Source of the DNA: Embleya hyalina
Lineage (GTDB): Bacteria > Actinomycetota > Actinomycetes > Streptomycetales > Streptomycetaceae
Assembly (NCBI RefSeq): GCF_003967355.1
Contig: NZ_BIFH01000032.1
Span: 76,632 to 140,631 of the forward strand
Direction: 5' to 3'
DNA: 64,000 nucleotides
The notes below the pieces were generated by a model, which was not told where the DNA came from, made no database searches, and was given only the letters and a program-made list of their open reading frames with translations. The first letter of the stretch is position 1; the number at the start of each line of letters is the position of its first letter. The position numbers were made by a program, and so were the translations under genes. Positions 11,086 through 20,760 of this stretch are shown here, in pieces.

Positions 11086-12417
11086 TCAGGACGTCCTGGG
11101 GGTGGCGCGCACGCCCATGTGGACGTACTGACTGCCGTCGGCGAGGCGGTAGAAGACCACGTTGTCCCACAGCGTGGCGCCCTCGCGCTGCCCGACGAAC
11201 GTGGTCTCGTCGACCGGGGTGAGCGTCAGCTCCATGTCCGGCGAGATGTCGGCCAGCTCGCCGGTGGTCTGGATGAGCATGTGCAGCCGACCGTCCCGGA
11301 CCGAGACGGTGGTGCGGTTGCCCACCCGCTCGTAGACGCCGGCGTACTGCTCGACGTCCACCGCGACCGGGGTCTCCGGCGGGCCCAGCTGCGGCGACAT
11401 GGTGACGCCCGCCAGCGTGGCGAACAGCTCGCCGCCGAGCGCGCGTTGCAGAGCCGAGGTCTCGCCGCCGTTGGCCAGCAGGCACACCACGGTGCCGGTG
11501 TCGGGCACCACCCACAACATCGCCGACTGGCCGATGGTGTTGCCCGCGTGCATGATCACCCGGTGGCCGGACCACTCGTCGAGGATCCACCCGATCCCCC
11601 ACTGCGGCGCGAGCGTATACGGGTTCGGCAGGTCCACCTGCGGCTCGGTCATCCCCGTCGGCTCGGCCAACAGCTCGGTCCCCAGGTGCGCCCGGCCGAA
11701 GGCGACCACGTCGCTCGCCCGCGCGCAGATCAGGCCGGCCGGCCCCATCGCCCGCGGCAGACCCCACACGGGGGTCGCCTTGCCGTCCTCCACGTGCCCC
11801 GTCGCCGCGCCGAAGCGCAGTACGTCCTCGGGCAGCGTCCAGGTGTGGGTCAGGCCCAGGGGCTCGCAGATCTGCTCGCGCAGCGCCGCGTCCCAGGTCT
11901 TGCCGGTCAGCCGCTCGATGATCCGGCCGGCGATCACGAAGCCCGTGTTGCAGTAGGAGAAGCTCTCCCCGATCGGGTGGTTCTGGGTCAGGTCCGCGCA
12001 GGCCGCGACGTACTTCTCCAGACAGTCGTCGCCGCGCGAGGTGTCCAGGAACAGGTCGCCGTCTATGCCGGAGGTGTGGGTCAGCAGCTGCCGGACCGTC
12101 ACCGACTTGGTCACCTGGGCGTCGGCGACCTTGAACTCGGGGAGCAGGTCGACGACCGGGGTGTCCAGGGTGAGCCGGCCCTGCTCGGCGAGGAGCATCA
12201 GCTGGGTGGCGGTCCAGACCTTGGTCACCGAGCCGATCTGGAACAGCGAGTCGGGCGAGACGGGCGTACCGGTGTCCCGGTTGAGCACACCGGCGGCGAA
12301 GCTGTGCACCTCGCCGCCGTGCCAGAACGCGAGGCTCGCGCCCGGCACGTCGAACTCGGTGATCAGCTCGGCGAGGCGGGCGTTCCAGTGCGCGGTGTCG
12401 ACGACGGTTCCGGTCAT
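11086..12417 (-). CDS. Class C beta-lactamase-like serine hydrolase
   Basis: This 443-residue penicillin-binding-protein/EstB-type hydrolase has the SxxK motif SVTK at 63-66 (nucleophile Ser63), a YCN motif near residue 155 as the second active-site element, and HAGNT near 285 in the place of KTG. A beta-rich C-terminal domain (about 330-435, YAGVYERVGNRTTVSVRDG) resembles the lipocalin-like domain that follows many of these enzymes. No signal peptide is seen, so it is probably cytoplasmic and acts as an esterase, amidase or peptidase rather than on peptidoglycan. It lies between the exporter and the sensor kinase genes. The ATG at 12417 lies just after GAAAGAAGG-like sequence. A role in self-resistance or drug hydrolysis is possible but unproven. 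Confidence 0.85.
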   Translation of the reverse strand: MTGTVVDTAHWNARLAELITEFDVPGASLAFWHGGEVHSFAAGVLNRDTGTPVSPDSLFQIGSVTKVWTATQLMLLAEQGRLTLDTPVVDLLPEFKVADAQVTKSVTVRQLLTHTSGIDGDLFLDTSRGDDCLEKYVAACADLTQNHPIGESFSYCNTGFVIAGRIIERLTGKTWDAALREQICEPLGLTHTWTLPEDVLRFGAATGHVEDGKATPVWGLPRAMGPAGLICARASDVVAFGRAHLGTELLAEPTGMTEPQVDLPNPYTLAPQWGIGWILDEWSGHRVIMHAGNTIGQSAMLWVVPDTGTVVCLLANGGETSALQRALGGELFATLAGVTMSPQLGPPETPVAVDVEQYAGVYERVGNRTTVSVRDGRLHMLIQTTGELADISPDMELTLTPVDETTFVGQREGATLWDNVVFYRLADGSQYVHMGVRATPRTS

Positions 12418-12531: not shown

Positions 12532-14046
12532 TCAGCGGGCGCGATCGCCCCGCCCCGCCCGGACCAGGCCGGATTCGTACGCCACCACCACCGCCTGGGC
12601 CCGGTCCCGCACGTCGAGCTTGGTCAGCAGGTCCGCCTCCTGCCGCTCCAGTTCGGCCGGCTCCACCCGCAGCGCCGCGGCGATCTCGCCGTCGGCCTTG
12701 CCGGTCGCGAACAGGCGCAGCAGCGCCACCTCGGCCGGACTCAGCCGGGCCGGCCGCCCGGGCTCGGACACGAGACCGGCACCCGCCACCGACGCCGAAG
12801 CGGCCGCCGGCTCCGGCTCCGCCCCCGCCAGCGGCAACACCGCCGCGACCCGGAACCCGCCGTCGGCGGCCCGTCCCGCCTCGAACGACCCGCCGTGCAC
12901 GGCCACCCGCTCGCGCATCCCGACCAGCCCGTGCCCACCACCGGTCATCGCGTAGTCGCCGACGGCCACCTCGCCGCCCCCGTCGTCGCGGATCTCCACG
13001 GCGACCGCGCCCGGCAGGTATTCCAGCCGCACCGTCGCCGTCGCCGCGTCCCCGGCGTGCTTGCGGGCGTTGGTCAGCGCCTCCTGGGTGATCCGGTACA
13101 CCGCCAGACCCACCGGCAGCGGCAACGCGCGCGGCGCGCCCAGGACGCGCAGTTCGGTGGGCAGCCCGGCCAGGCAGGACTCGGCGATCAGTCGGGCCAG
13201 GTCGTCGACGCCGGGCTGCGGCGCGACCGACGCCGCCTGGTCCGGGTCGTGGTCGCTGCGCAGTACACCGAGCAACTGCCGCATCTCGCCGAGCGCCACC
13301 CGGCCGGACGCCTCCAGGGTGAGCAGCGCGGCGCGGGCCGCCTCCGGGTCCCGGTCCAGGCTGGCCCGGGCACCTCCGGACATCAGGTGCATCGTGGTGA
13401 TGTGGTGCGCCACGATGTCGTGCAGTTCGCGGGCGATCCGGCGGCGCTCGTCGGACAGCGCCCGGTCGGCCAGCAGCACGCGGTTGACCTCGACCTGTCC
13501 CTGCCAGTTGCGCACCGCGGCGCTCACCCCGAGCACGAGCAGCGTCGCCACGAGGTCGCCGCTGAACAGCCAGAGGAAAGACTCGGACGCGTTTCGATAT
13601 CCCGTCGCCTGGGCCACCAGCGTGGCCAGCGCCGCGAGCGCCACGGTCCGGGGCCGACCGGCCAGGCCGACCGTGTACAGCGCCACGGCCAGCGCGATCC
13701 CGAAACGTTGCGGCATCGCCAGGAGCAGGTTGAGCACCACCACCAGGGTGAGCACGAACGACAACACGCCGATCGGCGACCGACGGCGCGCGAGCAGACT
13801 CGCGGCCGACGCGAACATGAACAGCGTCCCGACGACCCGCTCCCCCGGTCCGGCGGAGGGAAGGGTGATGAAGAACCCGAAGGTGTCCACGGCCGCCGCG
13901 ACCAGGCAGATCACCAGGTCGGCCCGGGTGACGGCGAGAAACGACCACCGCCCCGGCGTCGACCCGGGGGCGGATTTCGTGCCTGCGAGGTCACGCCCGG
14001 TGACGGCCTTGCCGAGCGCGGCCAAGGACTCGGGGCCGAAGCCCAT
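12532..14046 (-). CDS. Membrane histidine kinase fused to a LuxR-type HTH
   Basis: This is a 504-residue protein. Residues 35-180 carry about five to six transmembrane helices. Residues 197-265 are a HisKA_3 dimerisation domain with the H-box RRIARELHDIVAHH (His209). Residues 300-415 are the HATPase domain (ITQEALTNARKHA, VEIRDDGGG, GGHGLVGMRERV). Residues 437-495 match a LuxR/GerE helix-turn-helix (LSPAEVALLRLFATGKADGEI, LTKLDVRDRAQAVVVAYESGL), somewhat diverged. Normally such kinases phosphorylate a separate receiver-LuxR partner. Here no receiver domain or response-regulator gene is visible, and the output domain is on the kinase itself. The ATG at 14046 has AGGAG seven bases upstream. A 20-bp palindrome precedes the gene. 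Confidence 0.88.
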   Translation of the reverse strand: MGFGPESLAALGKAVTGRDLAGTKSAPGSTPGRWSFLAVTRADLVICLVAAAVDTFGFFITLPSAGPGERVVGTLFMFASAASLLARRRSPIGVLSFVLTLVVVLNLLLAMPQRFGIALAVALYTVGLAGRPRTVALAALATLVAQATGYRNASESFLWLFSGDLVATLLVLGVSAAVRNWQGQVEVNRVLLADRALSDERRRIARELHDIVAHHITTMHLMSGGARASLDRDPEAARAALLTLEASGRVALGEMRQLLGVLRSDHDPDQAASVAPQPGVDDLARLIAESCLAGLPTELRVLGAPRALPLPVGLAVYRITQEALTNARKHAGDAATATVRLEYLPGAVAVEIRDDGGGEVAVGDYAMTGGGHGLVGMRERVAVHGGSFEAGRAADGGFRVAAVLPLAGAEPEPAAASASVAGAGLVSEPGRPARLSPAEVALLRLFATGKADGEIAAALRVEPAELERQEADLLTKLDVRDRAQAVVVAYESGLVRAGRGDRAR

Positions 14047-14080
14047 CCGGGGTCTCCTTCCATGGGGAACGGCGTGCCAG

Positions 14081-14100
14081 TATTCCACCGTGGTGGAATA
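14081..14100. promoter_or_regulatory. 20-bp palindrome upstream of the kinase-HTH gene
   Basis: TATTCCACCGTGGTGGAATA has perfect 9-bp arms with a 2-base centre, and lies 35 bases upstream of the kinase-HTH start codon. It is A/T-edged and not part of a terminator. A binding site for the encoded HTH or another dimeric regulator is the likely explanation (inference). Confidence 0.6.
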
Positions 14101-14223: not shown

Positions 14224-15021
14224 TCAGGCGCCCGCCGCCGCGCTCCCCGCCCCCGAAGGCGCGTCGGCGAAGGCCCCGGACAGCAGGTGTCCGGCGCCCG
14301 GCGCGAAGGCCGGCAGGTCGAGGGCGCGGAGCATCTGGTGCACCGTGCACACCGCCGCCGAGACGACCGGCTTGCCCAGCCGCTGTTCGGCGTCCTCGAT
14401 CGCGGCGAGCGACGGCATCTGTACGCACGCCGACAACACCACCGCGTCCGCGTCGGCGTGTTCGAGGCGGTCCGCGATGTCGGGCAGGCGCAGCGGGTCG
14501 TGCGCGGCCACGTCGAGGTTGTCCGGGATCTCCAGCGCCTCGAAGTCCAGCACCTCGATCCCCTCGTGTCCGAGGTATTCCACCACCGTGCGGGTCAGCG
14601 GCAGCATGTACGGCGCGACCAGCGCGACCTTGCGCGCGCCGATCGTGTGCAGCCCGTGCACGAGGGCGCCGGCGCTGGTGACCACCGGCGCCGGCGCGCC
14701 GTTCTCGACGGTGCGGCCGTGCAGGCGCTCCTCGGAGACCCGGTGGTAGCCGAGTCCCATGCTCATGATCGCCACCAGGCACGCGTAGCCGAGCACGTCC
14801 ACCCGAGCGTCGGACAGTTCGACGGCGCAGCGGTCGGAGTCGGCGTCCATCGCGGCCAATTGCTCGGGGGTGACGTGGGTCATCCGCATCCGGCTGGAGT
14901 GGAACGTGAAGCGCTCCGGAGCGACCGTCTCGCGGGCCCGCAGGATCGCGGGCACCTCGGTTTCCATCGTGACATTGGAACTCGGCACGATCTGGCCGAC
15001 GCGGTAGGGGTGTTGACGCAC
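14224..15021 (-). CDS. Maleate cis-trans isomerase (Asp/Glu racemase superfamily)
   Basis: This 265-residue protein has the opening RVGQIVPSSNVTMETEVP typical of maleate isomerases. The two catalytic cysteines are in GYACLVAIM (near residue 85) and LSACVQMPSL (near 200), and GARKVALVAPYMLP lies between them. The enzyme isomerises maleate to fumarate without added cofactor. In this operon it would follow hydrolysis of maleylpyruvate to maleate and pyruvate, feeding the TCA cycle. The GTG at 15021 has GGAGG eight bases upstream. It is the last gene of the block, before the terminator. An arylmalonate decarboxylase or other racemase is an alternative reading, but the substrate loop and context favour maleate. 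Confidence 0.87.
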   Translation of the reverse strand: MRQHPYRVGQIVPSSNVTMETEVPAILRARETVAPERFTFHSSRMRMTHVTPEQLAAMDADSDRCAVELSDARVDVLGYACLVAIMSMGLGYHRVSEERLHGRTVENGAPAPVVTSAGALVHGLHTIGARKVALVAPYMLPLTRTVVEYLGHEGIEVLDFEALEIPDNLDVAAHDPLRLPDIADRLEHADADAVVLSACVQMPSLAAIEDAEQRLGKPVVSAAVCTVHQMLRALDLPAFAPGAGHLLSGAFADAPSGAGSAAAGA

Positions 15022-15040
15022 GGGAGGGGCCTCCTGCTGG

Positions 15041-15070
15041 TGCCGGGAAAGCTGATGCCGGGAAAGCTGA
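15041..15070. repeat. Two perfect copies of a 15-bp unit
   Basis: TGCCGGGAAAGCTGA occurs twice head to tail (15041-15055, 15056-15070), followed by a partial third copy. It sits in the 80-base gap between the FAH-family and maleate isomerase genes and has no obvious hairpin. Confidence 0.8.
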
Positions 15071-15101
15071 TGCCGAAGCAAGGGAACGGGGCGGGTTCGC
15101 G

Positions 15102-16007
15102 TCAGCGGGCGTCGATCACCGGGTTGGTCAGCGTGCCGATGCGCTCGACGGTCGCCTCGACCACGTCGCCCGGCCGCAGGTACTGCGGCGGGACCTGGGC
15201 CGCGCCGACCCCGGACGGCGAGCCGGTGGAGATCACGTCGCCGGGCTCCAGGGTCATCCCGGACGAGATGTCGGCGATCAGCCGAGGGATGTCGAACAAC
15301 ATGTGCCGGGTGTTGGACTTCTGCTTGACGTCGCCGTTGACCCGCAGCGACAGGTCGAGGGCCTGGGCGTCGGGGATCTCGTCGGCGGTGACCACGGCCG
15401 GGCCGAACGGGGCGTAGGAGTCCTGGCCCTTGGAGAAGAACCACTGCCCGGAGCGGCGCTGGTCCCGGGCGCTGATGTCGTTCATGATGCTGTAGCCGAA
15501 CACGTGGTCCCACGCGTCGGCTTCGCTCACCTTGTAGGCGGTTCGGCCGATCACCACCGCGAGTTCGCATTCCCAGTCGAGCTGTGCGGTCAGGGCCGCG
15601 TTGTGCAGGATCGGCGCTCCCGGGCCGGTCACCGCGGTGGCGGGCTTCCCGAACAGCACCGGACGGTCCGGGAGTTCCTTCGCGGTGTCGAGGGTGCGGC
15701 TGGATTCGGCGACGTGCTCGACGTAGTTGAGCCCGATGCCGATGATCTTCCCGGGGCGCAGCGGCGCGAGCAGCCGCACCTCGCCCGTGGCGTGCACGGT
15801 GCCGGCCGGGCGGTCGGCGGGCGCGCCGGCGAGCAGTTCGCGCGCGGTGTCGAGCGCGTCGGCGCCCGCCCGGACGAACGACAGCAGGTCGCCGGGGAGT
15901 TCGACGCCCGCGGCGGCGGCCAGGGCGGCCAGATCCGTCACGTGCGCGCCGTCCTCGGCGCCCAGGCGGGGCGACGAGTCGCCGACGGTGTAGGTGACCA
16001 GGCGCAT
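15102..16007 (-). CDS. Fumarylacetoacetate hydrolase-family protein (acylpyruvate hydrolase)
   Basis: This 301-residue protein has the FAH fold. IIGIGLNYVEHVAESS and RPVLFGKP start the catalytic domain. The metal-binding set is WECELAVVIG (Glu residues) together with the downstream Asp in the GYSIMNDISARDQRRSGQWF segment, then KGQDSYAPFGPAVV, and ISTGSPSGVG closes the active site. The family cleaves C-C bonds in acylpyruvates with Mg2+ or Mn2+. After gentisate ring opening, the substrate should be maleylpyruvate (giving maleate plus pyruvate) or fumarylpyruvate (giving fumarate plus pyruvate). The adjacent maleate isomerase argues for the first. It lies 76 bases after the gentisate dioxygenase gene. 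Confidence 0.9.
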   Translation of the reverse strand: MRLVTYTVGDSSPRLGAEDGAHVTDLAALAAAAGVELPGDLLSFVRAGADALDTARELLAGAPADRPAGTVHATGEVRLLAPLRPGKIIGIGLNYVEHVAESSRTLDTAKELPDRPVLFGKPATAVTGPGAPILHNAALTAQLDWECELAVVIGRTAYKVSEADAWDHVFGYSIMNDISARDQRRSGQWFFSKGQDSYAPFGPAVVTADEIPDAQALDLSLRVNGDVKQKSNTRHMLFDIPRLIADISSGMTLEPGDVISTGSPSGVGAAQVPPQYLRPGDVVEATVERIGTLTNPVIDAR

Positions 16008-16083
16008 GGGGTGTCCTCACTGTCTTGCGTCCGGGCGGCGCGGTCGCGGCGCCTCGGGTGGTGGGTGTGCGGGATGAACCGGC

Positions 16084-17199
16084 TCAGCCGGCCGGCGTCG
16101 GCTGGTGGCCGTCGTTGTCGACGTAGGCCTCTTCGCGGAAGAAGCCCAGCGAACGCATCACGGGGAAGTCGTCGAACGAGAACAGCACCGCGTCCTCGCC
16201 CTGATCGAGGTTGGCGTGCTCGTGCCACGCCCACGCGGGCACCGCGAAGACGTCGCCCTCGTGCCACTCGAACCGCTGCCCGGCCACGATCGAGACGCCG
16301 TGTCCCTTGGCCGCGGTGTACACGACCGAGCCGGTGTGCCGGTGTGCCTTCGTCGCCTGGCCGGCGCGCAGGAGTTGGATGTGCGCGCCCATCGTGGGCA
16401 TCACCGAGCCGCCGGTGGCGGGGTTGGTGTACTCCATGATCAGGCCGTCGTACGGCGATCCCTCGCTCGCCTTCGCCAGGTCGAGCAGCGCCTGGTAGGT
16501 GGGCTCCCACGGCCAGGCGAGCAGCGGCGAGTAGGGCCGGGTCCACCGTTCGACGCCGTACGGCACGAGGTTGCCGCCGTAGGTCAGGACGGAGGAGTTC
16601 ACCACCTTGCCGGGCACCTGGTAGACGTCCGGGTGGACCTCGTAGAAGCCCGCGTCGAGCGCGTTGACCAGCGGGATGTCCAGGCCGTCCTGCCAGATCA
16701 CCGGCGTGTCGTCGGACTCGTTGCCGTGCTCGTGCCAGGTCCCGTTCGGGGTGATCGCGAAGTCGCGGGCGCCGACCCGCAGTTTCTCGCCGTCCACGAT
16801 CGTCCAGGCGCCGGTGCCCTCCAGGACGAACCGCAGCGCGGCGGCCTGGTGTCGGTGTGCGGTCATCGACTCGCCGGGGCCCATGATCTGCAGGCCGGTG
16901 TAGAGCAGGCCCGCGGCGGCGCTGACGTCCCGGCGGCCGGGGTTGACCAGCATGACCACCCGGCGGCCGGCGTCGTCGGCCTTGACCAGGTCGAGCGCCT
17001 TGCGCACCAGCGGGCGCAGTTCGGCGTAGCGCCACAGCGTGGGTACCGACTTGGGCTGCGGGTACCAGGGTTCGATCTCGTTTGCCACGGTCCACAGCGC
17101 GCCGGCCTCGCGGTCGGCCAACTCGGCGTAGTAGGCGCTCAGTTCCGGGGTGTCGGTGACTCGGGCCCGGCCCAGCATGTTGTCGTCCTGGGTGGTCAT
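16084..17199 (-). CDS. Gentisate 1,2-dioxygenase
   Basis: This 371-residue bicupin Fe(II) ring-cleaving enzyme carries its N-terminal cupin ligands in MTAHRHQAAALRFVLEG (His-x-His) and TWHEHGN. The C-terminal cupin repeats the pattern with KAHRHTGSVVYTA and WAWHEHANLDQG. VLEGTGAWTIVDGE is typical of the family. It opens gentisate between the carboxyl- and hydroxyl-bearing carbons to maleylpyruvate. The start overlaps the nitrilase stop (ATGA), so it is translationally coupled, and GAGGAG lies just before the ATG. In the Streptomyces sp. WA46 salicylate pathway the corresponding enzyme is SdgD. 1-hydroxy-2-naphthoate or salicylate dioxygenases are related alternatives, but the neighbouring salicylyl-CoA hydroxylase supports gentisate. 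Confidence 0.93.
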   Translation of the reverse strand: MTTQDDNMLGRARVTDTPELSAYYAELADREAGALWTVANEIEPWYPQPKSVPTLWRYAELRPLVRKALDLVKADDAGRRVVMLVNPGRRDVSAAAGLLYTGLQIMGPGESMTAHRHQAAALRFVLEGTGAWTIVDGEKLRVGARDFAITPNGTWHEHGNESDDTPVIWQDGLDIPLVNALDAGFYEVHPDVYQVPGKVVNSSVLTYGGNLVPYGVERWTRPYSPLLAWPWEPTYQALLDLAKASEGSPYDGLIMEYTNPATGGSVMPTMGAHIQLLRAGQATKAHRHTGSVVYTAAKGHGVSIVAGQRFEWHEGDVFAVPAWAWHEHANLDQGEDAVLFSFDDFPVMRSLGFFREEAYVDNDGHQPTPAG

Positions 17200-18260
17200 G
17201 TCTCCTCCTCGGGTACGGGGGTGGCGGCGGGGGCGAGGGGCGTCGCGGTGGCGGGGTCGTGGGTGAACGTGATCGGGGACCGGGGCCGGTTGTCCACGTT
17301 CAGCGCGAAGACGTCGAAGCGGTTGTAGTGGCCGACGATGTCGTGCATCTGCTTGGGCTGGATGCACCTGGCGAGGTCGATGTCGGCGTAGACGATGCCC
17401 TCGTCGTCGATCAGCGGTTCGCCGACGGGGCGGCCGTCCGGGCCGAACACGCCCGAGTAGGCGCTGCGTTCGCGGCCCAGCTGCTTGCGCACCTCCTCGT
17501 CGTCGCCGGCGATGGCGTCGACGATCTCGGGCGAGATGGTCGAGCAGGCCACCACCGAGAACACCTTGCCCTCGAAGCTGTGCGCGGCGGTGCGGACCGC
17601 GATCGCGTCGGCCATGTCGTAGTCGGCGGGCGCCACGGGCAGGGCGATGTAGCTCGCGGCGTGTACGAGTTCGCCCTGGGCGAGCAGGGTGAAGCGGGCC
17701 AGCGTGTTGGTGTTCTCGCCGCACGCGAGCACGCCGAGCGGGCCGATGCCGGTCGGGTGCACCCGCAGCGAGCTGCCGTCGCCGCCGGTCCAGGTCAGCT
17801 TCTCCGCCCAGGTGGGCACCAGCTTGCGGTGCACCCCGATCAGTTCGCCGTCGGCGTCGATGGTCAGCATGGTGTTGTAGAGCACGCCCATGCTGTGCGG
17901 GCCGCGCTCGTTGACGCCGATCACCACCACCGCGCCGGCCGCCCGGGCCGCCGCGCGCAGCGTTTCCACGTGCGGGCCCGGTACGTCCACCGAGGACCGG
18001 TACAGGCGTTCGTACCAGGGTGAGCCCTGGACCGGGTTCATCGTCCAGTTCCAGTACGGATATCCGGGGACGAACGCCTCGGGGAAGACGATCAGTTCGG
18101 CGCCGTTGCCGGCGGCCTCGCGGATCAGCGCGACCGCCTTGGCCACGGTGGCGGCCGCGTCCAGGTAGACCGGCGCGGCCTGGACGGCGGCGGCCTTGAA
18201 CCGGGGCGGGTCGTCGCGTTGGGCGCCGGTGAGCACGATCGGTGGGGTGGGACCTGTCAT
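17196..18260 (-). CDS. Nitrilase (aliphatic nitrilase-like)
   Basis: This 354-residue carbon-nitrogen hydrolase has the catalytic triad Glu61 in VFPEAF, Lys in GVHRKLVPTW (near 143) and Cys in GVLACGENTNTLARF (near 177). The CGENTNTLARF motif is typical of aliphatic nitrilases rather than plant-type or arylacetonitrilases. Such enzymes hydrolyse nitriles to acids plus ammonia. It lies between the salicylyl-CoA hydroxylase and the gentisate dioxygenase genes and overlaps the latter by ATGA, so it is part of the operon. Its substrate is not obvious. It could supply an aromatic acid from a nitrile, or act on something unrelated. GAGGAG precedes the ATG at 18260. Confidence 0.9.
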   Translation of the reverse strand: MTGPTPPIVLTGAQRDDPPRFKAAAVQAAPVYLDAAATVAKAVALIREAAGNGAELIVFPEAFVPGYPYWNWTMNPVQGSPWYERLYRSSVDVPGPHVETLRAAARAAGAVVVIGVNERGPHSMGVLYNTMLTIDADGELIGVHRKLVPTWAEKLTWTGGDGSSLRVHPTGIGPLGVLACGENTNTLARFTLLAQGELVHAASYIALPVAPADYDMADAIAVRTAAHSFEGKVFSVVACSTISPEIVDAIAGDDEEVRKQLGRERSAYSGVFGPDGRPVGEPLIDDEGIVYADIDLARCIQPKQMHDIVGHYNRFDVFALNVDNRPRSPITFTHDPATATPLAPAATPVPEEET

Positions 18261-18316
18261 GGCGGGCTCCTCGTGGTGCGCTGTTCGGTCGGCGGATACG
18301 AGGTCGGGGTGTCGGC

Positions 18317-20707
18317 TCACCTCCGGCCGGGTGCGGTGACCAGGCGGGGGTCGGTCTCCGGCCGCCACCGCCGCGGCACGGTCTCGACCTCCGCGCGCGA
18401 CAGGTGCAGCCGGGGCGGCACTCGATCACTACCCGCGCCGGGCGGTTTGCGACTGCCGGGCCGCCAGGCGTTCGGCCAGGGCGCGCCCGGTCCGGCGTAG
18501 CCCTGGTCGGCGGCGGCGTGCAGCGTCCACAGCGGGTCGTACAGGTGCGCGCGGCCCACCGCGCACAGGTCCGCCCGGCCCGCGAGCAGGATCGAGTTGA
18601 CGTCGTCGTAGGTGGAGATCGCGCCGACCGCGATGGTCGGCACGCCGGTCGCGTTGCGGATCAGGTCGGCGAACGGCGTCTGGTAGCCGCGTCCGTAGGC
18701 GGGTCGCTCGTACGGCACGACCTCGCCCGAGGACACGTCGATGGCGTCCGCGCCGGCCGCCGCGAGCGCCCGGGCGATCCGCACCGCCTCGTCCTCGGTG
18801 GTGCCGCCCTCGGCCCAGTCGCTCGCCGAGATCCGCACCACCAGTGGCTTGTTGCTCGGCCACACCGCCCGCACGGCGGACAACACCTCGATCGGGAAGC
18901 GCAGTCGGCCGGCGAGCGAGCCGCCGTATTCGTCCTCGCGCAGGTTGGTCAGCGGGGACAGGAAACCGGAGAGCAGATGCCCGTGGCCGTACTGGAGTTC
19001 CAGCGCGTCGAAGCCCGCCCGGTCGGCGCGTGCGGCGGCGGCGGCGAACGCGGCGGTGATCGCGTCCAGATCGGCCCGGTCCGCCTCGCGCGGGCGGAAG
19101 TCGCCCTCGGCATCCCAGGGAATCGCGGACGCGGCCACCGTCGGCCACCCGTCCGGACCCAGCGGCGTCCACGCGCCGTCGGCGTTGGGCACCGAACCGG
19201 CCGCGCGGCGCCCGGCGTGCGTGAGCTGAATGCCCAACAGGGACCCGTTCGGGGCCTGTTCGCGCACCCGGGTGACCACCTCGCGCCAGGCCGTCCCCTG
19301 CGCGTCGGACCACAGGCCCGGACAGGCGGCGGTGGCACGGCCGTTGGGCAGTACGGCGGTCATGCCGGCGAAGACCAGGCTCGCCCCGCCGAGCGCGAGC
19401 GCGCCCAGGTGGGCGGCCTCGAACGGGCCGGGGAAGCCGTCGACGGCCGTGTAGGTGGCCATCGGCGGGACCACCACGCGGTTGCGCAGCCGGACCGAGC
19501 CGAGCCGGAAGGGCTGGAACATCGGTGCCGCGTCCACCCGGTCCGGTCGCCCGGCGGTGAACGCCGCGTCCACCTGCGCCACGAACGCCGGGTCGCGCTC
19601 GGACAGGTTGGCGTGGGTGACCCGGCGGCTGCGGGTGAGCAGGTTGAAGGCGAACTGCTCGGGCGCCTGGCCGACCGCCCGGTCGATGTTCTCGAACCAC
19701 TCCAGGCTGGCCTGCGCGGCGCGCTGCGTGGAGGCCACCACCGGCTTGCGCTCGGCCTCGTAGGCGGTGAGCGCGGCCGGGATGTCGGCGTGTTCGTTCA
19801 GGCACGCGGCCAGGGCGAGGGCGTCCTCCATGGCGAGTTTGGTGCCCGAGCCGATGGAGAAGTGCGCGGTGTGCGCGGCGTCGCCGAGCAGGACCACGTT
19901 CTCGTGGTGCCAGGTGGCGTTGCGCACCGTGGTGAACCGGATCCACCGCGAGTTGTTCGGGATCAGCCGGTGTCCGTCCAGGTGCTCGGCCAGCAGCGCC
20001 TCGCAGCGCGCGATGCCCGCCTCGTCACTGGCCCCGCGCGGCAGCTCGCGACCGGCGAACTCGGCGAACCCGCCGCGCCGCCAGGCGTCTTCGGCCAGTT
20101 CGACGATGAACGTGCTGCGCCGGTCGTCGAACGGATACGCGTGCACCTGCACCACGCCGAAGTCGTGCTTGTCGACGATGAAGGTGAACGCGTCGAAGAC
20201 CTTGTCCGTACCCAGCCACATGTAGCGGCAGCCGCGCTCGTCCAGATCGGGCCGGAACACGTCGGCGTAGCGCTCGCGCACGGTGGAGCGCACCCCGTCC
20301 GAGGCGACCACCAGGTCGTGCGTGCGCGCCAGTTCGTCCACGGGCGGGGCCTCGGTGCGGTAGCGCAGGTCGATGCCGAGCGCCGCGCAGCGCTCCTGCA
20401 GGATGCGCAACAGCCGCTCCCGGCCGAGCGCGGCGAACCCGTGCCCCCCGGAGGTGAGCGTGCGTCCGCCGTAGCGCACGTCGACGTCCGTCCAGCGGGC
20501 GAAGCCCTCGGACATCGCGGCGAAGATCTCCGGGTCGGCCTGGGCGATGCCGTCCAGGGTCTCGTCGGAGAACACCACGCCGAAGCCGAACACGTCGTCG
20601 GGTGCGTTGCGCTCCCACAGGGTGATCTCCGACGCCGGCGAGAGCTGCTTGGCGAGGGCGGCGAAGTACAACCCGCCCGGCCCGCCGCCGATGACTGCTA
20701 TGCGCAC
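18317..20707 (-). CDS. sdgC: Bifunctional salicylyl-CoA 5-hydroxylase/oxidoreductase
   Basis: This 796-residue two-domain flavoprotein has at residues 1-390 a class A FAD monooxygenase: RIAVIGGGPGGLYF at the N-terminus, GFGVVFSDETL, and GDAAHTAHFSIGSGTK near 285. Residues 415-750 are an Old Yellow Enzyme-type domain (MFQPFRLGSVRLRNRVVVPPM, ALELQYGHGHLLSGFLSP, REDEYGGSLAGRLRFP, VGRAHLYDP). This architecture is that of salicylyl-CoA 5-hydroxylase (SdgC) and of 2-aminobenzoyl-CoA monooxygenase/reductase. With gentisate dioxygenase in the operon, salicylyl-CoA to gentisyl-CoA is the best reading. The GTG at 20707 has GGAGG five bases upstream; an upstream TTG is possible but overlaps that site. 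It has its own upstream region containing the 19-bp shared motif. Confidence 0.9.
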   Translation of the reverse strand: MRIAVIGGGPGGLYFAALAKQLSPASEITLWERNAPDDVFGFGVVFSDETLDGIAQADPEIFAAMSEGFARWTDVDVRYGGRTLTSGGHGFAALGRERLLRILQERCAALGIDLRYRTEAPPVDELARTHDLVVASDGVRSTVRERYADVFRPDLDERGCRYMWLGTDKVFDAFTFIVDKHDFGVVQVHAYPFDDRRSTFIVELAEDAWRRGGFAEFAGRELPRGASDEAGIARCEALLAEHLDGHRLIPNNSRWIRFTTVRNATWHHENVVLLGDAAHTAHFSIGSGTKLAMEDALALAACLNEHADIPAALTAYEAERKPVVASTQRAAQASLEWFENIDRAVGQAPEQFAFNLLTRSRRVTHANLSERDPAFVAQVDAAFTAGRPDRVDAAPMFQPFRLGSVRLRNRVVVPPMATYTAVDGFPGPFEAAHLGALALGGASLVFAGMTAVLPNGRATAACPGLWSDAQGTAWREVVTRVREQAPNGSLLGIQLTHAGRRAAGSVPNADGAWTPLGPDGWPTVAASAIPWDAEGDFRPREADRADLDAITAAFAAAAARADRAGFDALELQYGHGHLLSGFLSPLTNLREDEYGGSLAGRLRFPIEVLSAVRAVWPSNKPLVVRISASDWAEGGTTEDEAVRIARALAAAGADAIDVSSGEVVPYERPAYGRGYQTPFADLIRNATGVPTIAVGAISTYDDVNSILLAGRADLCAVGRAHLYDPLWTLHAAADQGYAGPGAPWPNAWRPGSRKPPGAGSDRVPPRLHLSRAEVETVPRRWRPETDPRLVTAPGRR

Positions 20708-20760
20708 AGCGTCCTCCAATATTCCCGGCCTATCCGAGCGTATGTAATAAATTCCACGGT

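Follow-up and report, generated by a model that had tools for sequence, protein, structure and literature searches.

The window analysed here, a 64 kb stretch of contig 32 (C32) of the 12.05 Mb Embleya hyalina genome, contains a gene encoding a sensor kinase that runs on, in the same frame, into a NarL/LuxR-type HTH domain (Table 1). A sequence-only reading of this DNA had listed membrane helices, HisKA_3 with His209, HATPase and a GerE-like HTH in this order, with no receiver, and the open reading frame and its Pfam matches bear this out. In the model of the full-length protein, the putative membrane region is composed of helices at residues 41-61, 67-86, 91-108, 117-129 and 132-147 and the start of that spanning 157-229. 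The HisKA_3 and HATPase_c domains score 64.1 bits and 42.1 bits respectively, and the phospho-acceptor, the H of an ELHD motif, was assigned by position; the GerE domain, at 23.7 bits, barely clears the cut-off, which is 23.5. Pfam found no Response_reg match in the protein, the linker of which, at 25 residues, is too short to house a receiver. Among solved structures, DesK is closest in sequence to the kinase part, and VraR and LiaR to the tail.

Table 1. Features of the fused kinase gene and its surroundings in the window
Feature	Position	Strand	Basis or remark
Fused sensor kinase gene, 504 aa	12532..14046	-	ATG at 14046, stop ends at 12532
Membrane region, residues 41-190	13477..13926	-	Helices of the full-length model; putatively membrane-spanning
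HisKA_3 dimerisation/phosphotransfer domain, residues 200-265, phospho-acceptor His209	13252..13449	-	Pfam
HATPase_c catalytic domain, residues 315-407; motifs ITQEALTNARKH, DDGGG and GGGHGL intact	12826..13104	-	Pfam and orthologue alignment
Variable linker, residues 408-432; site of the lost receiver	12751..12825	-	Orthologue comparison
GerE (NarL/LuxR-type HTH) domain, residues 434-489	12580..12747	-	Pfam, model and fold search
Alpha 9, once the DNA-recognition segment; residues 459-477, invariant Lys replaced by Glu	12616..12672	-	Sequence comparison
Segment of the dimerisation helix, alpha 10, conserved; residues 478-496	12559..12615	-	Sequence comparison
Ribosome-binding-site-like GGAAGGAG, preceding the ATG	14054..14061	-	Sequence
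20 bp palindrome with 9 bp arms and 2 bp centre, core TTCCACCNNGGTGGAA	14081..14100		Sequence
Promoter-like block CGGTGGAATACTGGC	14076..14090	-	Identical in all four orthologues; putative promoter role
Beta-lactamase-family serine hydrolase, downstream neighbour	11086..12417	-	Pfam; same place in genomes G001 and G002

That no response regulator gene lies nearby, as had also been remarked from the sequence, agrees with a genome-wide search for receivers, which gave 114 matches, none of them within the 64 kb window; the sole match on C32 is at 217323-217655, around 127 kb off. The closest other GerE match on this contig, at 153238-153390, likewise falls outside the window. Across the genome there were 110 GerE matches (150 of 197 candidates scored) and 73 HisKA_3 matches (150 of 162 candidates scored), and a comparison of these tables by eye found the two domains in one open frame only here.

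The fused kinase is present at full length in all four Embleya genomes examined, always with the HTH tail and never with a receiver between. The three orthologues are 87, 66 and 63% identical to the E. hyalina protein as a whole, and 91, 63 and 54% identical to its GerE part, with 66, 58 and 59 of the 66 HisKA_3 residues shared. The least conserved part is the linker (52, 20 and 16% identity), which also differs in length among the genomes. The four fusions agree at every residue of the H, N and G boxes, and dN/dS against the three orthologues is 0.00, 0.18 and 0.11 over residues 200-314 and 0.27, 0.68 and 0.26 over the HATPase domain; the kinase is taken to be active because its motifs are intact and its core is under purifying selection. 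The corresponding values for the whole GerE domain, 0.40, 0.51 and 0.41, indicate moderate constraint only.

In Embleya genomes G001 and G002 the gene is flanked, as in the window, by the serine hydrolase and an arylmalonate-decarboxylase-like gene. The fused kinase evolves faster than its seven neighbours in both: its protein identity is 84.8% in G002, against 96.4-98.4% for the neighbours, and 63.7% in G001, against 83.0-94.9%. None of these seven neighbour proteins was found on the 16.7 kb contig carrying the fused kinase in G003, where the gene instead adjoins an ABC transporter that includes an FtsX permease. A putative type I-E CRISPR-Cas operon, recognised from protein starts only, also lies near the fused kinase of this genome (L121, 11514-16641).

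Further comparison revealed the probable source of the two halves. A whole-protein search of 81 relatives (19 candidates scored in nearly all) returned matches at the 1e-95 level in seven: the four Embleya, the Yinghuangia genomes G650 and G669, and G677, another member of the family, in which the kinase likewise has a separate regulator. The orthologous kinase is found beside an intact NarL-type regulator in two of the three Yinghuangia genomes searched (G650 and G669, not G661), one of the two neighbouring regulators having been checked by Pfam as receiver plus GerE. The nearest non-fused kinase among the matches listed, that of Yinghuangia seranimata, is 58% identical and starts with the same MGFGP, and the next gene encodes a regulator with receiver and GerE domains by Pfam. 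These Yinghuangia pairs (L039/L188 and L187) resemble the fusion in having an orthologous kinase, an MGFGP-like N terminus and a regulator HTH of the same clade, but differ in being two separate genes with a complete receiver. A scan of contigs gave at least 80 loci (596 stretches matched), with 84 frames for the kinase part, 83 for the HTH part and, by a script run without a fused positive control, none for both.

In a kinase tree of 23 rows, from which the chosen rows L048 and L054 fell out (no kinase being found by pattern), the four fusions group together (96/94) beside the two Yinghuangia kinases, forming a six-row clade (100/100). In an HTH tree of 32 rows and 66 columns, the fusion HTHs form a group of their own (100/99) on a long stem (0.85); the surrounding clade (94/89) contains the pair regulators of Yinghuangia and Embleya, the order of the fusions relative to these two sets of regulators being unsupported. 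Since the tree relatives of the fused kinases carry no tail, the fusion with loss of the receiver is regarded as derived, and as a single event. Comparison of the sequences thereby gives good support to the view that a kinase gene and a regulator gene became one protein with the loss of the receiver, presumably through a deletion, and of the two origins that the sequence-only reading had considered, it is the fusion that lost its receiver which the intact pair in a related genus and the trees favour.

Both Yinghuangia pairs adjoin a divergent MMPL-type exporter gene, identified by Pfam at L039 and by sequence likeness at L187, and this exporter is a likely target of the ancestral kinase-regulator system. 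The genes lie at 5541-7754 of L039 and 5260-7485 of L187, and by likeness another lies at 5505-7847 of L122, next to a kinase-regulator pair on contig 17 of E. hyalina.

Residues with which such regulators contact DNA have been replaced in the fused tail. The reference set was composed of 84 regulator HTHs, taken from the at least 80 loci (rows scoring at least 20) with four Embleya pair regulators added, in all of which ten positions are invariant: R4, E5, N18, T31, K33, H35, K42, R48, A55 and G59. All four fusions have replaced R4 (by A, A, V and S), T31 (by E, A, A and A) and K33 (by E), and three of the four have replaced N18 (D, D, T and N) and H35 (Q, R, Y and H), both of which are unchanged in G003; E5, K42, R48, A55 and G59 are kept in every fusion. 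A second Glu three residues after the substituted K33 is also identical in all four. The conserved DNA-contact set, consisting of the Arg before Glu in alpha 7 and Thr-Val-Lys-x-His in alpha 9, is not preserved in the fused GerE domain.

K33 aligns with Lys182 of DosR (in the peptide FLAEKTVKNYVSRL), which contacts bases (PMC4082495), and the mutation of which to Gln leaves almost no DNA binding (PMC5861037). Ungapped spacing from G179 of DegU, which was checked on the LiaR alignment rather than on DegU itself, equates R4 with DegU R168, position 30 with K194, K33 with K197, position 34 with N198 and position 48 with R212. A study of DegU describes R168A as the poorest at DNA binding of three mutants (PMC9263151). 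Position 30 is A, A, A and S in the fusions, yet is variable in the 84 regulators too; position 34 is Arg in all four fusions, and the Arg at position 48 is kept. The net charge of alpha 9 is -1 to -2 in the fusions (-2 in E. hyalina) against +2 in five parent-type regulators, whilst that of the whole domain discriminates poorly, being -2 to -1 in the fusions against a mean of +1.4, and a range of -5 to +5, in the regulators. We strongly infer that the fused HTH no longer binds DNA in the manner of NarL.

The following helix has a different history. The dimer interface of DegU is mainly on alpha 10, according to PMC9263151, and this dimerisation helix can be recognised in the fused tail from its sequence alone. 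In the alpha 10 segment 14 of 19 sites are invariant in the fusions, as are 14 of 19 in the five regulators, whereas in alpha 9 the figures are 6 of 19 and 14 of 19; the contrast between the two segments in the fusions has a Fisher p of 0.02, uncorrected and for segments chosen by the analyst. Similarly, comparison with the three orthologues gives a dN/dS of 0.86, 0.85 and 0.73 in alpha 9 and of 0.00, 0.19 and 0.05 in the alpha 10 segment. The method is simple, the segments span 19 and 21 codons, and one dS is saturated, so that only the contrast is meaningful. It therefore seems that the tail has kept its pairing surface and lost the residues that touch DNA. The sequence-only reading had called the HTH diverged and suggested that it might bind protein; the divergence is now clear, with the residues for DNA binding in DosR and DegU replaced in all four fusions and the dimerisation helix kept, whilst the binding of protein is something that we infer.

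A model of residues 425-504 has a mean pLDDT of 85 and four helices, at positions 13-23, 28-35, 39-53 and 58-68 (residues 437-447, 452-459, 463-477 and 482-492), although with 42 true regulators among its 43 aligned rows it demonstrates compatibility with the fold rather than autonomous folding. Its best matches by fold were the DNA-binding domains of VraR, spr1814 and LiaR, those of DegU, NarL and DosR being matched too, with a best Foldseek E of 4.2e-4, and the concern raised from the sequence that this segment might not model as an HTH is answered by the predicted four-helix fold. The full-length model, built with kinases as its other 25 rows, predicts the tail poorly: pLDDT, taken in blocks of ten, is 49-74 between residues 431 and 490, and a single helix takes the place of alpha 9 and alpha 10.

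These features could also be those of a leftover, an HTH without a job that is slowly decaying on an otherwise ordinary orphan kinase. Such an explanation would account for the low GerE score, the long stem in the HTH tree and the relaxed alpha 9, and tail-less kinases of the subfamily with no regulator seen within 1.5 kb do exist in all four genomes of the genus. However, the HTH has stayed in frame in all four species though the linker changed freely, purifying selection acts on the alpha 10 segment, and drift alone hardly explains why the Glu at the Lys position and that three residues further on are the same in every fusion. We consider the leftover explanation doubtful, though its probability is appreciable.

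It is unlikely, given the sequence of the tail, that the protein is a membrane-bound one-component regulator, one whose HTH, controlled by the kinase core, would bind DNA while held at the membrane; the sequence-only reading had entertained such a regulator. The HTH fold given by the model and the fold search, the retained Arg equivalent to R212 and the invariant Arg in the place of N198 would all suit such a regulator. Nevertheless, all four fusions lack the Arg and Lys contacts, the recognition segment has turned from positive to negative charge relative to the parent-type regulators, and the variation of alpha 9 among species is close to neutral, which is not how a recognition helix behaves. 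Nor is the candidate binding site conserved. The palindrome upstream of the gene had been put forward from the sequence as the DNA target, but its core TTCCACCNNGGTGGAA occurs once among the four genus genomes, in E. hyalina only, and the upstream regions of the other three retain at most one palindrome half. As it is perfect in one genome of four, the palindrome was dismissed as a candidate for a conserved operator. Conservation at this place lies in the promoter-like block, which overlaps one palindrome half and is partly recognisable in Yinghuangia, and which is probably a promoter element and not an operator.

A receiver hidden by a frameshift or an assembly artefact is scarcely credible; nothing in its favour came to light, the same fusion is found in all four genomes of the genus, the linker in the window measures 25 residues, and no receiver lies within around 127 kb on the contig; the frameshift for which the earlier reading had allowed was ruled out by Pfam, the orthologue comparison and the receiver search.

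We lean modestly towards an account, built on these comparisons, of an active kinase that would signal in trans and whose retired HTH would serve as a pairing or docking module. In this account the fused protein is a membrane-anchored HisKA_3 kinase descended from the kinase of a pair formed with a NarL-type regulator. The comparisons show that both genes had become one by the time of the common ancestor of Embleya, the receiver of the regulator being lost, such that the kinase now ends in the HTH of the regulator. The kinase core is probably still active and would phosphorylate another protein in trans, most likely, at its receiver, the only close response regulator left in the genome, which is encoded on contig 17. 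The least certain step is the last, in which the retained HTH scaffold and dimerisation helix would mediate contacts between proteins, by holding the two kinase subunits together or by touching the HTH of the contig 17 regulator. Several features speak against the account: some basic residues remain, namely the Arg in the place of DegU N198 and the kept R212 equivalent; N18 and H35 are intact in G003; the moderate dN/dS of the GerE domain fits slow decay as well; the charge of the whole domain does not set fusions apart from regulators; and the full-length model predicts the GerE part poorly.

The contig 17 regulator is encoded beside its own kinase, and each of the four Embleya genomes has one such regulator close to the lost one, these being 100, 100, 95 and 83% identical to the contig 17 copy and all others 56% or less. 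By comparison, at the 1e-95 level the subfamily has three kinases in each Embleya genome, namely the fusion, the pair kinase and an orphan. In E. hyalina, the HisKA_3 domain of the contig 17 pair kinase is identical to that of the fusion at 55 of 66 residues and that of the orphan at 56 of 66. Of five further kinases of the genome, the pattern recognised the domain in one, which shares 32 of 66 residues. These sequences suggest that several kinases may feed one regulator. The further subfamily kinases, which are without an HTH tail and have no regulator seen within 1.5 kb, are at L013, L017, L019 and L020, one in each of the four Embleya genomes.

Proteins that unite a kinase and an HTH are known from the hybrid two-component systems of Bacteroides, in which both are part of one membrane protein with the receiver retained between them; the fusion shares this union, but not the receiver. 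EL222 is a LOV-LuxR one-component regulator that is soluble, has no kinase and binds DNA, and resembles the fusion in that its LuxR-type HTH is attached to something that is not a receiver; we take it to be the protein of PDB entry 3p7n, named 'Sensor histidine kinase'. DesK-type kinases have the membrane helices, HisKA_3 and HATPase_c of the fusion, but the chain of the latter runs beyond HATPase_c into GerE. The tail matches NarL/FixJ-type regulators (VraR, LiaR, DegU and DosR) in its fold and in the sequence of the dimerisation helix, and differs in the absence of a receiver and the replacement of the DNA-contact residues.

A profile search of 394 genomes of the class (8 candidates scored per genome) gave no second fusion among the matches listed: one match spanned both domains, which was the window itself, and another row reached position 156 of 191, through three stops. 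A joined probe of kinase core and HTH, run on 296 genomes, matched even the window fusion only over 1-215 of 282, and is insensitive to fusions. No HisKA_3-HATPase-GerE protein without a receiver was described in the titles and abstracts listed from the literature searched, the scope of which mostly excluded subscription papers and preprints. The available sections of PMC3353115 and PMC8895600 assign GerE to regulators and HisKA_3 to kinases, those of PMC9239133 and PMC1183210 do not contain the receiver-less architecture, and the portion available of a survey published in 2012 of 991 LuxR proteins from actinobacteria (PMC3466318) mentions neither HATPase nor HisKA and names architectures without a histidine kinase. 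The kinase and the HTH are known kinds of parts, and the receiver-less chain with a disarmed HTH was found, among the matches listed, only in Embleya.

The fusion provides a polarised case in which a two-component pair collapsed into one protein by losing the seemingly indispensable receiver, after which the DNA-contact residues were lost and the pairing helix was retained. It cautions that a GerE match on a kinase need not signify a transcription factor, and offers a clean test case for whether the dimerisation helices of HTH domains can be reused as docking modules between kinases and regulators.

Elsewhere in the window, an aromatic-acid cluster adjoins the fused kinase gene at 14224-20719, comprising arylmalonate-decarboxylase-like, fumarylacetoacetate hydrolase, cupin and nitrilase-family genes, the cupin being read as a putative gentisate dioxygenase, along with an 800 aa FAD monooxygenase fused to an NADH:flavin oxidoreductase domain. 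At 43298-63995 there are very long frames on the minus strand, a putative modular polyketide synthase that runs to the end of the window.
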